A stretch of DNA of 25,466 bases, taken from IMG/VR virus record IMGVR_UViG_3300034375_006729, positions 1-25,466 of that record; one strand, 5' to 3'. Each line of letters begins with the position of its first letter. Within the stretch, counting starts at the first letter, position 1. The notes beneath the pieces were generated by a model, which saw only the letters and a program-made list of their open reading frames with translations, did no database searches and had not been told where the DNA came from. This document shows positions 2,110 to 17,784 of the stretch, in pieces. The translations under genes were made by a program, and so were the position numbers. This DNA is from a virus.

Positions 2110-2118
2110 TATAAATAT
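2110..2118 (-). promoter_or_regulatory. Intergenic ATATTTATA motif upstream of the fibre gene
   Basis: Exact copy of the 9-mer ATATTTATA on the coding strand, 17 bases before the ATG at 2092. It overlaps the last base of the stop codon of the preceding gene. It is one of five exact copies in the window, all intergenic. It may be a late promoter element or an AU-rich leader element. On the opposite strand it contains TATAAATA, the T4 late promoter core, but in the wrong orientation for these genes. Confidence 0.4.
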
Positions 2119-5100
2119 CAAACATGTTGAATATGACTGAAATTTTCTATCTTATTAACTTCAATTAAGTTATCTACCATATCTCTCATTGATTCAACAT
2201 GAGATATAATAATTGAAAAATCAAATTTTGTTCTAAAATATTCAAATAAATTTGTTACTGCAGAAATATGTTCTCTATCTAAACTACCCCATCCTTCGTC
2301 TATTGCAATAAAATTAGGTCTTGGTAATGCTGATACATTAATTAATGCTACACGAATTGCCAATGAAGAAATAAATCTTTCCATTCCAGATGTTAGTTCT
2401 AATGGCCAAAAATTATCTTCATCATAAATTATATAACCATTTATATTTTTACCATCTGTATTTAATACCATATTGAAATCAACTACTTGATTTAAAACAT
2501 TGTTAATTTCTGTTTCAATTTTAGGTAATGCTTTTTTAATTAATTCGTATGGAACACCATCACGCTTTACAGACTGTAAATAATATTCATATGCTTTATA
2601 TTCTGTTTCCAATTGTTTATATGTTTCTAATTGTTCTAAAGCTGTTTTCTTTTTTGTTTTAGCTACTTCAATTTCACCATGATTAGATTTAATTTTATTA
2701 GTTATATTCTTTATTAACTCTGTAGTTTCTAATATAAGTTTCTTTTTAGAATCTATTTTTTTATCTATAGATTCATTATATGTAATAGCAGATTCATTTT
2801 TACGAAATAATTCTTGTCGTTCAGCATTAGTTTCTAATTCTGATTCTTTTGTTTGCATATCACTTTCAAATATTTGTAATTGTAATTCTAATTTTTCAAT
2901 TGAATTTTTTAAATTTATTTTTTCTTGATATTCATGAATTAAAGAATTTAATTTATCAATTCGTTGTTGAAAGAATTGTACCGCTCCGTGTTTTGTTTTT
3001 AAATGCAATTCATTTCCAGGAAGTAATCTTTCTGCTTCTAATGCATCTTTTACAAATATATTTTCAATACAATACTTACATGTATGATCATATTCATGAG
3101 TCTTTAAATGATCAATTTTCTTTTTTTGTGAAGATATTAAACTTGTTAGTGTGCTTATTTCATTTGATAATATATCTTTTTTCTTGATAATATCTGATAA
3201 TTCATTTGATATTTTTTTAAATTGTTTTGAATCTATAGTTGTTTGATATGAAGATATATTAGATTTAGTATCATTAATTTTTGTCTCTAATGAACTAATT
3301 TTAACGTCTATATTTTCAATATTTTGTATTAAAACTGTTTCTTCTTGTTGTAATTTATTAATAGTAGGACCTTCATACGACATTGGTTGTTTTGATTCAA
3401 TTAATTCTACTATTTCATTTTGTAGATTATTTCTCGATTCTTGCAGTTCATTATCATTTTTTTCTAATTCAATTATTGTATCTTGATTTGCAATAATAAT
3501 ATCATCTGATTCTTTTATTATAGATCCAAAGTCTGTTTTTTTATACTCTTTTAATTTACCAGATGTTTCTTTTATTTCTTCAGCAGCTAAATAATATAAT
3601 TGCTCAAATACCGTTGTATCTAAAAATTGTGATAATAAATCTTTTCTTTCTCGTTGAGATTTTTCTATAAAATTATTATTATCTGCTTGTAATGAGAATG
3701 CTGTTAAAATAAAATCATCATATGTTCCTAAATATCTTCTAATACTTTTATTAGTATCACTTCTTTCTTCACCGTTTAAGTTTTGATCTTCATTATAAAA
3801 ATTAACATTTACTTTTACATGACCATGCTTTAATGTTATACCTTCTCGTTCAATAGTATATAATTTGTCATTTAACATGAATTTAAATATACCTTTAAAT
3901 CCAGACTTTTTATTATTTAGTACTTCTTTTGATTTACTTGTTTTACTACATTTATCAAATATAGTATATGTTATAGCATCAAGTAACGATGATTTACCAG
4001 ATGCATTTGCTGCAAACAATCCTATAACGTCTGATAATTTTGAAAAATCTACTTTATTTTTTTCTCCATATGAAAACATATTACTAAATTCAAATGATAC
4101 AGGATACCATGTTACATTTCTTACAGATTCTAAAACAGGTAATTTAGAATTAATTGTTCTATTAATATGTCTGATTGCATCTAATTCTTTTTTGTCTGCA
4201 TCAGGATAACTTTCCTCAATAAATTGTGTTATTAAATTATTTTGATGTTCTACATCTCTAACGTTTCCAATTGCAATTGATCCATTTTGATTATTTTCAA
4301 TATGATTTGCACTACGTTGTATAGATATATCTTGAACTTTATATTTTTTTCTAATTGTTGCAATTAATTTTTTAATATCAGACGCATCGGTATCATTAAA
4401 TTTAATTCTAACTCTTGGTTTTTTTGGAACTCTATATGGCGAATTAATAATTTTTGCATTATCAACTTCAAATGTAACATATCCATAATTATTTTCTATT
4501 TCTATAAATTCAGATGTACGATCAGGTAAGTCCCATACTAGTATTCCATGATCTAAAGCTTCTCCATGATTTTGTTGTATTAAAGATCCAGGATATCCAA
4601 TTGTTTTTTCTTTATTTAAAAATTGAGCTGGCTTATGTATATCTCCTAATAATGTTAAATCATGTCCTTCAAATAATTCTGTTGTAACATGATCATTTGA
4701 TATTTGAAATCCAATATCTGTTTTTGCATTATGTACAGCTCCATGATGTAATGCTATTTTATAATGAGCGTTAAAATCTTTAGCTCGAATATAATCTTTT
4801 GGAGCTACGTCAACGGCCATATGATTAAATACAACATTTGCAAATTTAAATAATCCATTCTCTTTTATGAAATGTATATTTGGATTATCAATAACATCTA
4901 GTATTGGAGATATTGCATCTAATCTATATAAATTATTTAAATTCATATCATGATTTCCTAATATAACAATAGTAGGAATATGAAATCCATTAAAGAATTT
5001 TGTTAACATGTTAATTAGTTCTGGTGACATATCTAATTTAGAGTGAACGATATCTCCAGTTATAACACAAATACTTTGATTGGTTGCATGTTGTGCTATA

Positions 5101-5228
5101 TGTAAAAATAATGTATCAAATACTTCTTGATATTCTTTATGCCGTTTTAACGTACGTATATGAATATCAGAAACATGAAATATTTTATCAATTGATGTTA
5201 TATTTGTTTTTAATTCTTTTATTTCCAT
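2118..5228 (-). CDS. Single-chain SbcD (Mre11, gp47-like) - SbcC (Rad50, gp46-like) fusion
   Basis: A 1036-residue recombination nuclease/ATPase; in T4 the two halves are separate proteins, gp47 and gp46, that resect DNA ends for recombination-dependent replication. Residues 15-235 hold the calcineurin-type phosphoesterase motifs: D21-I-H23, G58-D59, G91-N-H-D94, H161-H162-G, G195-D-I-H198. From about residue 375 the Rad50 ATPase begins: Walker A region 403-414 (ends SGKSS), a coiled coil of about 545-880 interrupted by a zinc-hook CKYC at 717-720, then the signature TSGMERF at 946-952 and Walker B FIAIDEG at 973-979. The start overlaps the primase stop by 10 bases, so the two are probably translationally coupled. 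The linker at 240-370 has no break or frameshift. The Walker A first Gly is Ala (A406). Function is confident; the fusion is directly visible. Confidence 0.95.
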   Translation of the reverse strand: MEIKELKTNITSIDKIFHVSDIHIRTLKRHKEYQEVFDTLFLHIAQHATNQSICVITGDIVHSKLDMSPELINMLTKFFNGFHIPTIVILGNHDMNLNNLYRLDAISPILDVIDNPNIHFIKENGLFKFANVVFNHMAVDVAPKDYIRAKDFNAHYKIALHHGAVHNAKTDIGFQISNDHVTTELFEGHDLTLLGDIHKPAQFLNKEKTIGYPGSLIQQNHGEALDHGILVWDLPDRTSEFIEIENNYGYVTFEVDNAKIINSPYRVPKKPRVRIKFNDTDASDIKKLIATIRKKYKVQDISIQRSANHIENNQNGSIAIGNVRDVEHQNNLITQFIEESYPDADKKELDAIRHINRTINSKLPVLESVRNVTWYPVSFEFSNMFSYGEKNKVDFSKLSDVIGLFAANASGKSSLLDAITYTIFDKCSKTSKSKEVLNNKKSGFKGIFKFMLNDKLYTIEREGITLKHGHVKVNVNFYNEDQNLNGEERSDTNKSIRRYLGTYDDFILTAFSLQADNNNFIEKSQRERKDLLSQFLDTTVFEQLYYLAAEEIKETSGKLKEYKKTDFGSIIKESDDIIIANQDTIIELEKNDNELQESRNNLQNEIVELIESKQPMSYEGPTINKLQQEETVLIQNIENIDVKISSLETKINDTKSNISSYQTTIDSKQFKKISNELSDIIKKKDILSNEISTLTSLISSQKKKIDHLKTHEYDHTCKYCIENIFVKDALEAERLLPGNELHLKTKHGAVQFFQQRIDKLNSLIHEYQEKINLKNSIEKLELQLQIFESDMQTKESELETNAERQELFRKNESAITYNESIDKKIDSKKKLILETTELIKNITNKIKSNHGEIEVAKTKKKTALEQLETYKQLETEYKAYEYYLQSVKRDGVPYELIKKALPKIETEINNVLNQVVDFNMVLNTDGKNINGYIIYDEDNFWPLELTSGMERFISSLAIRVALINVSALPRPNFIAIDEGWGSLDREHISAVTNLFEYFRTKFDFSIIISHVESMRDMVDNLIEVNKIENFSHIQHV

Positions 5229-6337: not shown

Positions 6338-6814
6338 TCATAATGCAAAAAATTTTGTTGTAACTGGTGTTTCTCCTTCTTTACAACATTCATCTAACCA
6401 TTCTTTTGGCATTTCTTTTTTTGCTACATATTCAATTCCTATCTTTTTTGCATACATTTCATATGTAGTTTTTGAACCTTTTGAGATTTTTTGATTTGGA
6501 TTTTGAAATATAATTCTCAAATCAATATTTGGATGAGATGCTAAAATATGTTTCATTTTTTGTCTGTCAGTGCTTGTCCATCTTCCTTTGGTTTCAATAT
6601 ACATTGTGTTACCATTCTTTTTTGTAAAAATAAAATCAGGTGTATACTTTGAATTTTTTTGAGGAACAATATATTGTAATGTTTCTGTTTCATATTTTAC
6701 TGGATATTTTGATTCTTTAATTTGATCTGCTACTTTTAATTCTAATCCAGATCTATATCCATATTTATATGCTGCTTGGCGTTGTTTATTATTAGAGTGC
6801 CAATGATTTTTCAT
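6338..6814 (-). CDS. T7 endonuclease I-like Holliday junction resolvase
   Basis: A 158-residue protein that matches phage T7 endonuclease I (gene 3) in length and motif order. T7 uses Glu20, Asp55, Glu65 and Lys67; here the equivalents are Glu25 (SGLE), Asp60 (YTPDF), Glu74 and Lys76 (ETKGRW). The later segments LRIIFQNPNQKISKGSKTT and EWLDECCKEG also follow the T7 order. It should cut branched DNA such as Holliday junctions. Its start has a good ribosome-binding site (AAAGGA, spacer 5-6) and it lies 9 bases after the kinase-like gene, so it is at the end of the structural operon. Late expression would suit debranching of replicated DNA during packaging, the job of the unrelated endonuclease VII (gp49) in T4. 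No other fold seems likely. Confidence 0.92.
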   Translation of the reverse strand: MKNHWHSNNKQRQAAYKYGYRSGLELKVADQIKESKYPVKYETETLQYIVPQKNSKYTPDFIFTKKNGNTMYIETKGRWTSTDRQKMKHILASHPNIDLRIIFQNPNQKISKGSKTTYEMYAKKIGIEYVAKKEMPKEWLDECCKEGETPVTTKFFAL

Positions 6815-6823
6815 AACTTTCCT

Positions 6824-7369
6824 TTACCAGTCTATCATAACTAAATTACCATTCCATAACATGATATTTTCAGGTCTAAAATCTAATGATAATTCTAAGT
6901 CTCCAATTCCGGTTTTTTTAACTTGTTGTTCTAATGCTCTTAAAAATGTAATAATTCTTGGAGAATAATTTCTAGAAGCTTCTGTATTTAAAAAATTAAA
7001 TATACTTGTTTCTAATCCTTGACTTCTAGCATATTCTTTATAATCATTATAATAACGATTTAATTCAGATTTTAAATTATCTGTTAAATTTGAAGCTTGA
7101 CTCATTATATACATATTTTTTTGAGAGTCTGAATAATGTACAGGAATAAATGCGTCAAATTCATTTGGTCTTCCTACAATAACATCAGCTACAGCTGTTT
7201 CTTCTGGTTCTGTTGTTATTTTAAATAATAAATCTTCACCATTAATAGAATACACTTTTCCGTTATCACCTTGAGCTAAAAATGATAATTCTTTATTTCT
7301 TATTTTAGATAATAATCTATCAGCTTCTTCTTCTGATATTTCGTTTAATATATTCTTTAATTTAATCAT
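6824..7369 (-). CDS. Minimal protein-kinase-fold protein ending just after the DFG-position Asp
   Basis: A 181-residue protein with a kinase-like motif series: Gly-rich loop GDNGKV at 34-39, a Lys at 50 (LLFKIT), catalytic loop LDFRPENIM at 162-170 with Asp163 and Asn168 in the D-x4-N spacing of HRDLKPEN, and Asp180 in MID at the metal-binding DFG position. The chain stops one residue later (Trp181), so there is no activation loop and no substrate-binding lobe of a standard kinase. A helical insert (95-150) precedes the catalytic loop. The N-terminus (MIKLKNILNE) is of a type common in marine T4-like phages. Its ATG directly follows the stop codon of the adhesin gene, so translation is probably coupled. 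It could phosphorylate a host or virion protein, a small molecule, or be a nucleotide-binding remnant. Kinase fold is fairly likely; activity unknown. Confidence 0.7.
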   Translation of the reverse strand: MIKLKNILNEISEEEADRLLSKIRNKELSFLAQGDNGKVYSINGEDLLFKITTEPEETAVADVIVGRPNEFDAFIPVHYSDSQKNMYIMSQASNLTDNLKSELNRYYNDYKEYARSQGLETSIFNFLNTEASRNYSPRIITFLRALEQQVKKTGIGDLELSLDFRPENIMLWNGNLVMIDW

Positions 7370-8959
7370 TTACAAATTTACTTTTGGTTTATCTAAATCT
7401 ATTTTCAAAGAAAAATTTAAATCAATATCATTTCTATTTTTTATAGGAGATCCTGTTTTTCCAATCATTAATAATTGTCCTTTGTCATTATATAAACCAA
7501 TTGTAGTTATATAAGGATTAAATGCACTCCCAGTTGCAAACGATTTCATATTAACGTTATCATCTAACAATGTAGTGGGATTCAATGTTGCGTTAAAATC
7601 TCCTGAATCAATTGTTAAAAATACAGAATGTTCAAATCGTCTAACAGTACTTTTATATGTTAATGTATAATCAGAATTAATTAAATCTTTATAAAGATAA
7701 TTTGGACTAGAAATAATAAAAAATCCAGATTTATCAAAAACATTACCAACACGATTTGTTTGTAATATTTGTTTTGCATTTTCTGATCTATTACCTAATG
7801 AATTAATTTGATTTTGTGATAATGATTTATTATATATTCGTATTTCATCTAAATATGAATTTAAATAATTTGATCCAATTAAATCGTTTTGATAACCACC
7901 AATTGATAAATTATCATTATTATTAATATAAATAGATGATGTTGTTAGACTATCAATAGGAGTAGTAATAAAATCAAAACTTCCGGAATTATTTTTTATA
8001 GTATCAATAAATAATTCTAATGAACTTCCACTTTTTTGACATACAACATGATTCCATGTGCTAGTATTTAATCCAGATGATGTAATTTCAGCAATTAAAT
8101 TTTCTGATCCTTGTGTGGTAAATTTCAAATTACCAGACCCAGATAATTCTATTTTAAATGGGTATTGCTGATTTGATATTGTATTAGTTTTTCCAATAAT
8201 TAATTGTCCAGAGCCAAATTCAGATGCATTTGGTTTTATATAAAATGATATAGCATAATTATGATCTTTATCATAATATCCATTCAATTCTGTTTCAATA
8301 AAACTAGAACCAGTAAATAATGCAGAAAGTCCAATTGGTAACTGTTGTCCATTACTAGTAGTTACACCTGTATTAAATGTTAAATTATTATATAATGTGT
8401 ACGGAATTCTTGTTAAATCAAAATATTCATTAAATCCCTCATAAAATGTTTCTTGTAAAGGAAATGATCTAGTATTAATATTTGTATCAAATATATTTCC
8501 ATATCTATCAGAATTCAACGTTAATCCTGAACTAGAAACATATGTAAATGAATCTGGTTTAATTCCTTCTCCAAATTTAATTTGCGGTATACTAAAAACA
8601 GACGCACTTTGATATAAAAATTTTGAAGTTTTATTTAAATCAGTAGGACCAAAAGTTTTTGTAGGTTCATTTTTATATTTGTAAAATAAATGATTAATTG
8701 AATAATATGTTTGAAATTGATATGTGCCATTTGAATTTAATGGAGCAGTAAATATAGCACTAGCAGAAACATTAGGCAATGTTCTTTGATAAATTCCTAA
8801 TAATGGTATAAAATTATTTGATTCAGCACTAGCTGATGTAAAAGAAAAAGTTTTATTTGCTTCAAATTCATTTACTTTATAATTAACAGGATCTATTTTT
8901 TTAAATACTGTTGGTGGAGCGCCATAATATGTTGTTATATCTGAAGTTTGATTCGCCAT
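7370..8959 (-). CDS. Adhesin-like tail protein with LamG/jelly-roll domain
   Basis: A 529-residue structural protein. Residues about 225-400 look like a laminin-G-type jelly roll: paired strands ending in SIGGYQNDLIGSNYLNS and then LDEIRIYNKSLSQNQI, the usual closing strand and helix of LamG_3-type domains that bind sugars or proteins. The C-terminus shares a domain with the upstream 379-residue protein: YITTIGLYNDKGQLLMIGK here at 483-501. No signal peptide or membrane helix is seen. It is probably part of a tail fibre or baseplate decoration that contacts the host surface. The ATG at 8959 follows an intrinsic-terminator hairpin whose T-run ends 6 bases upstream; the Shine-Dalgarno is weak. 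The kinase-like gene follows with no gap. Structural role is likely; the ligand is unknown. Confidence 0.8.
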   Translation of the reverse strand: MANQTSDITTYYGAPPTVFKKIDPVNYKVNEFEANKTFSFTSASAESNNFIPLLGIYQRTLPNVSASAIFTAPLNSNGTYQFQTYYSINHLFYKYKNEPTKTFGPTDLNKTSKFLYQSASVFSIPQIKFGEGIKPDSFTYVSSSGLTLNSDRYGNIFDTNINTRSFPLQETFYEGFNEYFDLTRIPYTLYNNLTFNTGVTTSNGQQLPIGLSALFTGSSFIETELNGYYDKDHNYAISFYIKPNASEFGSGQLIIGKTNTISNQQYPFKIELSGSGNLKFTTQGSENLIAEITSSGLNTSTWNHVVCQKSGSSLELFIDTIKNNSGSFDFITTPIDSLTTSSIYINNNDNLSIGGYQNDLIGSNYLNSYLDEIRIYNKSLSQNQINSLGNRSENAKQILQTNRVGNVFDKSGFFIISSPNYLYKDLINSDYTLTYKSTVRRFEHSVFLTIDSGDFNATLNPTTLLDDNVNMKSFATGSAFNPYITTIGLYNDKGQLLMIGKTGSPIKNRNDIDLNFSLKIDLDKPKVNL

Positions 8960-17777: not shown

Positions 17778-17784
17778 AATTTTA

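Follow-up and report, generated by a model that had tools for sequence, protein, structure and literature searches.

The current analysis describes a 181-residue protein encoded at positions 6824..7369 on the minus strand of a 25,466-nucleotide viral sequence from IMG/VR (record IMGVR_UViG_3300034375_006729; the whole stretch is hereafter called the window), which, judging from its predicted structure, has a kinase fold in a naturally minimal form and belongs to a lineage of T4-like phages. Every member of the diverse family to which it belongs consists of an N-lobe, a catalytic loop, and a Mg-binding Asp, followed by one Trp and no more. The protein begins with a conserved leader, MI[KR]LK.[IL]LxE, a feature that the first-pass annotation of this DNA overlooked, and at the sequence level this leader is laid out like the T4 capsid targeting sequence and is common to many unrelated proteins of these phages. 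We consider it probable (roughly 0.6) that the kinase-like protein is head cargo that loses its leader to a gp21-type protease and is ejected with the DNA as a stripped-down kinase, probably one needing a host partner. The evidence for the fold, the leader, and the link to the head comes from sequence and from a structural model.

All of the motifs reported by the first-pass annotation were found in the ORF. These include the Gly-rich loop G34-D35-N36-G37 (7259..7270, minus strand like all positions in this paragraph), which reads AQGDNGKVY around G34 and G37, the β3 lysine K50 (7220..7222), the catalytic loop D163-F-R-P-E-N168 (6866..6883), in which D163 lies within LDFRPEN168, and the DFG-equivalent Asp180, which is followed only by the C-terminal Trp181 (6827..6832), such that the protein ends in VMIDW directly before a TAA stop. 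Relatives were gathered in three scans of IMG/VR that spanned 40–100% identity, the last of which yielded 152 confirmed stretches, with 80 kept, and 49 diverse relatives of about 50% identity were aligned. The invariant positions of this alignment include M1, L4, E10, K22, I23, G34, N36, Y40, D46, K50, T52, E57, A61, D163, N168, M170, W172, D180, and W181, with the latter two being the last two residues throughout. E57 (7199..7201) was absent from the earlier description; it lies within a predicted helix (residues 55–64) and likely behaves as the αC glutamate. Accordingly, the Gly loop, the β3 Lys, the αC Glu, the catalytic Asp, the Asn, and the DFG Asp are all invariant or nearly so, and since these residues persist across 49 diverse relatives, the kinase motifs of the 181-residue ORF are not a product of chance.

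The abrupt end of the protein is likewise a property of the family. A terminal (I/V)DW-stop was present in every complete relative inspected (~100 loci, 40–100% identity), the lengths of which range from ~178 to ~188 residues. Given this identical end, neither is the stop due to a sequencing error nor is the gene in the window broken, which disposes of reading "truncated form" as a damaged gene as well as of a false stop near the gene end, as the same stop occurs on many different contigs. The complete relatives inspected, rather than retaining the full C-lobe that would mark the present copy as defective, all terminate one residue past the Asp. We therefore count a sequencing error or gene decay as refuted, its probability being negligible. 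Readthrough or frameshifting into a hidden C-lobe was considered and rejected as well, as the next ORF usually begins only tens of bases further on and is either a nuclease gene without relation to kinases or one of the variable cargo genes.

Outside of uncultured phages, relatives are scarce. None were found in the bacterial genomes searched, none were detected among cultured phages by tblastn, and searches of Pfam, PHROG, NCBIfam, and PDB sequences with the kinase-like protein returned weak, unrelated matches only. A profile search did identify a distant homolog (E about 2e-8) in the cultured Flavobacterium phage immuto, the 146-residue gp093 (L154:3366-3806), whose C-terminus, KIKIIDV-stop, also lies one residue past the DFG-equivalent Asp. 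Its gene is located just before the primase gene region, and the gene in the window is placed likewise. In gp093, a Ser replaces the catalytic Asp, which makes it a possible pseudokinase and suggests that some lineages may do without catalysis.

When the 49 diverse sequences were supplied to AlphaFold (AF2), the resulting model reached a pLDDT of 89.5 and a pTM of 0.84, whereas 11 close sequences yielded a pLDDT of 57. The modeled chain comprises five N-lobe strands with helix 55–64, helices 97–117 and 137–153, the catalytic loop, and two strands, after which it ends. The helices that normally follow the DFG motif in the C-lobe are absent from the model, and the complete relatives end at the Asp plus one residue. 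Foldseek comparison with the PDB retrieved APH(2''), PRPK/Bud32, Lpg2603, and RIO kinases (E down to 2.3e-4, TM about 0.36–0.45), while comparison with the viral models of BFVD returned 84 proteins at E≤1e-3, many of which are annotated as protein kinases. The best of these, A0A6J5PIX4, comes from an uncultured Caudovirales phage, is uncharacterised, and belongs to the present family (180 residues, 48% identity, TM 0.91). A further fold match, a 142-residue protein of PaMx11, was not located in the PaMx11 record by length and motif. The structure-based check proposed by the first-pass annotation has returned a kinase fold, and the predicted fold, together with a C-terminus kept at DFG+1 in complete relatives, bears out its suggestion of an extreme minimal kinase-like protein.

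Short kinases of several kinds are already known. Iyer et al. (2017) described kinases in phage polyvalent proteins that have no C-terminal subdomain but keep the active-site residues; these Kinase-PolyVal domains occur in elements of Bacteroidetes and Verrucomicrobia, also as stand-alone proteins, and are predicted to be injected with DNA (PMC5512222). Like Kinase-PolyVal (PF18762), the present family has lost the entire C-terminal subdomain and kept its active site. However, PF18762 does not appear in the Pfam matches reported for the 49 members, and none of seven records matched it at E≤10. Furthermore, unlike Kinase-PolyVal, the family is without the Glu before strand 2 (47 of 49 sequences have Asp at position 35), has no conserved Gln in the last N-lobe strand (residues 86–90), and occurs in T4-like phages with a leader of T4 type. 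Kinase-PolyVal also contains an insert between its catalytic His and Asp; no conserved His precedes D163 in the 49-member alignment. Membership in Kinase-PolyVal was rejected, based upon the profile and the two signature residues. As judged from these comparisons, the present proteins are a separate sequence family of the Kinase-PolyVal kind, which would be delivered by a T4 route if our reading of the leader is correct. Another parallel exists with OspG of Shigella and NleH, which are similarly minimal kinases encompassing subdomains I–VII and are delivered and partner-activated (PMC7943720), although their delivery route differs, and no OspG/NleH match was obtained among PDB structures by sequence or profile. 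The nearest BFVD match outside of the family is a short kinase-like protein of a jumbo phage, Pectobacterium phage CBB (A0A1L2CVI5), which shares the short fold and reduced C-lobe. In the CBB protein, the chain continues for about 30 residues beyond the DFG-equivalent Asp, in comparison to one in the present family.

The leader, MIKLKNILNE (residues 1–10; 7340..7369, minus strand), resembles a capsid targeting sequence with a predicted protease site after Glu10. Within the 49-member alignment, it is better conserved than the next twenty residues (mean entropy 0.85 vs 1.48 bits), and an [LI]xE motif is found within residues 5–11 of all 49 members. The leader is disordered in the model, with residues 1–9 being its sole stretch with pLDDT <50, yet M1, L4, and E10 are invariant. 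In a 173-kb relative (L021/G001), 8 of 181 genes begin with the shape M..[hydrophobic]..[hydrophobic][LI].E, compared to 0.23 expected from shuffled N-termini (maximum of 3 in 2000 shuffles) and 2 occurrences at 935 internal Met residues. These eight proteins share no similarity beyond the leader and their leader codons vary synonymously, and conservation therefore acts on the peptide itself. At the DNA level, a search pattern for MIKLK[DN]ILxE matched at least 120 stretches in IMG/VR, whereas the same pattern written backwards, a control for base composition rather than for coding, had no IMG/VR matches. The 86 leader ORFs that were read fall into 55 unrelated clusters. Pfam recognizes among them zeta toxin, NUDIX, and RNase_T exonuclease as well as the wall enzymes M23 peptidase with tail lysozyme, phage lysozyme, and cell-wall hydrolase. 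As a point against the capsid-targeting reading, a few leader genes are without L-x-E at the expected place. We found no description of this leader in the open-access literature searched, which is not proof of its absence.

Several other characteristics of the leader genes were also observed. Among IMG/VR contigs L211–L290, several leader ORFs have YHFT-type starts that look ADP-ribosyltransferase-like by eye, and the leader ORFs of these contigs constitute a candidate catalogue of injected effectors. Two leader proteins (L061:2502-3566 and L070:3137-3913) continue into a zinc-ribbon-like segment, CDNC.W.W...DGG.DLY.CHKCGH, and then into variable C-terminal parts, an arrangement that looks like an exchangeable delivery module. 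At L106:2988-4004, a leader protein encoded directly upstream of the kinase contains a HELTH motif and is probably a zinc metallopeptidase. Additionally, a TATTTATATA/TATTTATAAA motif is located shortly upstream of many gene starts, including those of several leader genes (L061–L069; window position 17783, minus strand). The 173-kb relative has 19 copies of it on the coding strand vs 5 on the other, and it is possibly a late promoter.

The capsid targeting sequence of T4 is 10 residues in length, with positions 4 and 7 serving in targeting and positions 8 and 10 in processing, and the T4 protease gp21 cuts after L/I-x-E (PMC9026906). The present leader resembles those of the T4 internal proteins and Alt in its ten N-terminal residues, its hydrophobic positions 4, 7, and 8, its Glu10, and its L/I-x-E cut site. 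As in T4, unrelated cargo stands behind a common leader and a gp21-type protease is encoded in the same genome, in this case that of the 173-kb relative. Unlike the T4 internal proteins and Alt, the cargo here has a kinase fold, the cargo families are far more numerous, and packaging is inferred from sequence. The individual letters of the leader also differ from those of the T4 internal-protein leader. Being a 25-kb fragment, the window contains no head cluster of its own, and the protease evidence comes from relatives: the 173-kb relative encodes a gp21-type protease (phrog_207, E 3.4e-56) together with a gp20 portal and a gp23-type capsid protein, and a gp21-type protease is annotated in immuto as well, whose gp231 has the leader MIKLIDLLTE. 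On other contigs, leader ORFs occupy the interval from terminase to portal, follow the protease, or stand between the gp21 protease and the gp22 scaffold, with those next to the scaffold being homologs of g56 of the 173-kb relative; g56 itself starts MRIKDLLE. In addition, the presumed propeptide end of the capsid protein (MCP), [LI][LIV]xE|[AV] in 16 sequences, is similar to the leader end, [IL][LI]xE.

Upstream of the kinase gene lies an adhesin-like gene with a Laminin_G_3 domain (7370..8959, minus strand; Pfam E 9.7e-15), whose TAA stop (7370-7372) directly abuts the kinase ATG, as the first-pass annotation had noted. Of the 132 loci in which an upstream gene was seen, 130 have a homolog of this gene in that place, although these loci are not all distinct contigs. 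From this adjacency, a link to the virion had been proposed; the link itself is supported, with the leader of T4 capsid-targeting type providing stronger ground for it than the neighboring adhesin gene. Downstream is a homolog of T7-type endonuclease I (6338..6814, minus strand; Pfam Phage_endo_I, E 1.3e-35). Among more divergent relatives, the endonuclease gene is often replaced by a gene for one of several large proteins that begin in a leader-like manner, and the position thus resembles a variable cargo locus. Elsewhere in the window (2118-5228, minus strand), a 1036-residue protein matches phrog_100 (SbcD-like) over residues 2–351 and phrog_77 (SbcC-like) over residues 284–1033, and is apparently a fused gp47–gp46 recombination nuclease. 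The nearest capsid proteins belong to a Flavobacterium phage (57%) and to a phage deposited as infecting Microcystis (55%); the probable host of these phages is suggested by such proteins, and the nearest cultured relative infects Flavobacterium.

Based upon these features, a route for the kinase-like protein can be proposed. The leader would bring it into the prohead core, where a gp21-type protease would remove the leader after Glu10, and the remaining 171 residues would be packaged and ejected with the DNA. In the new host, the protein would bind ATP-Mg and might then modify a host target, most likely by phosphorylation, a step we propose with less assurance than those preceding it. A kinase ending at DFG+1 is without both an activation segment and helix F, and it is plausible, by analogy, that a partner supplies the missing lobe. 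OspG resembles kinase subdomains I–VII only and is idle until bound to host ubiquitin (PMC7943720); the same logic would silence the phage protein in the producing cell. If the job of the missing lobe were performed by the target or by a host partner, the protein would be idle in the cell that makes it and active in the next. When SteC was trimmed to about 11–13 residues past its DGD motif, substrate phosphorylation was abolished (PMC13395416), which argues against stand-alone activity of the even shorter phage form.

The main rival to this explanation is a non-catalytic role, in which the head cargo is a pseudokinase that uses its ATP pocket for stability or ligand sensing, transfers no phosphate, and blocks a host or defence protein after injection. 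The absence of the substrate-holding lobe and the loss of the catalytic Asp in the immuto homolog both agree with such a role, as does the existence of a pure inhibitor among the T4 internal proteins, where IPI* blocks a restriction enzyme (PMC3012670). We nevertheless regard it as unlikely, since K50, E57, D163, N168, and D180 are invariant in 49 members, which mere folding or binding would not require. A split kinase, with its C-lobe supplied by a separate phage protein, would account for the wholly absent activation segment and later helices, but no conserved neighbor is C-lobe-like, different relatives have different genes downstream, and the next ORF usually follows so closely, at a distance of tens of bases, that a lobe made by readthrough would not fit, all of which renders this possibility very improbable.

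A separate question concerns the destination of the leader. It could direct proteins to the tail or baseplate, or act as a scaffold-docking peptide that is kept in the particle, in which case the kinase-like protein would act in assembly and not in the new host. Its gene does follow just after tail/adhesin genes in the window and in relatives, and cell-wall hydrolases of the sort usual in tails occur among the leader proteins. Indeed, a counterpoint to head cargo is that several leader proteins are peptidoglycan hydrolases or peptidoglycan-binding proteins, which could belong to another virion compartment or serve in lysis. However, the leader layout and cut site match both the T4 capsid targeting sequence and the presumed site of the capsid protein itself, and leader ORFs, including the g56 homologs, are found inside the head cluster. 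We therefore judge another compartment to be a rather poor prospect and favor packaging into the head.

More broadly, this T4-like lineage may fill its head with a highly diverse and changeable assortment of proteins, very many in number, via one protease-cleaved ten-residue leader, with a near-constant cargo being a subdomain I–VII kinase that gains activity only once it meets a partner in the next infected cell, a combined proposal that we advance tentatively, at somewhat less than even odds. If the leader is a capsid-targeting signal, a simple text search exposes the injected proteome of a widespread group of uncultured phages, and most of that proteome would be of unknown function. Among its members, the kinase-like cargo offers a natural test of how little kinase still works, and a family fixed at DFG+1 would provide a direct test of whether a target or partner can replace the C-lobe.
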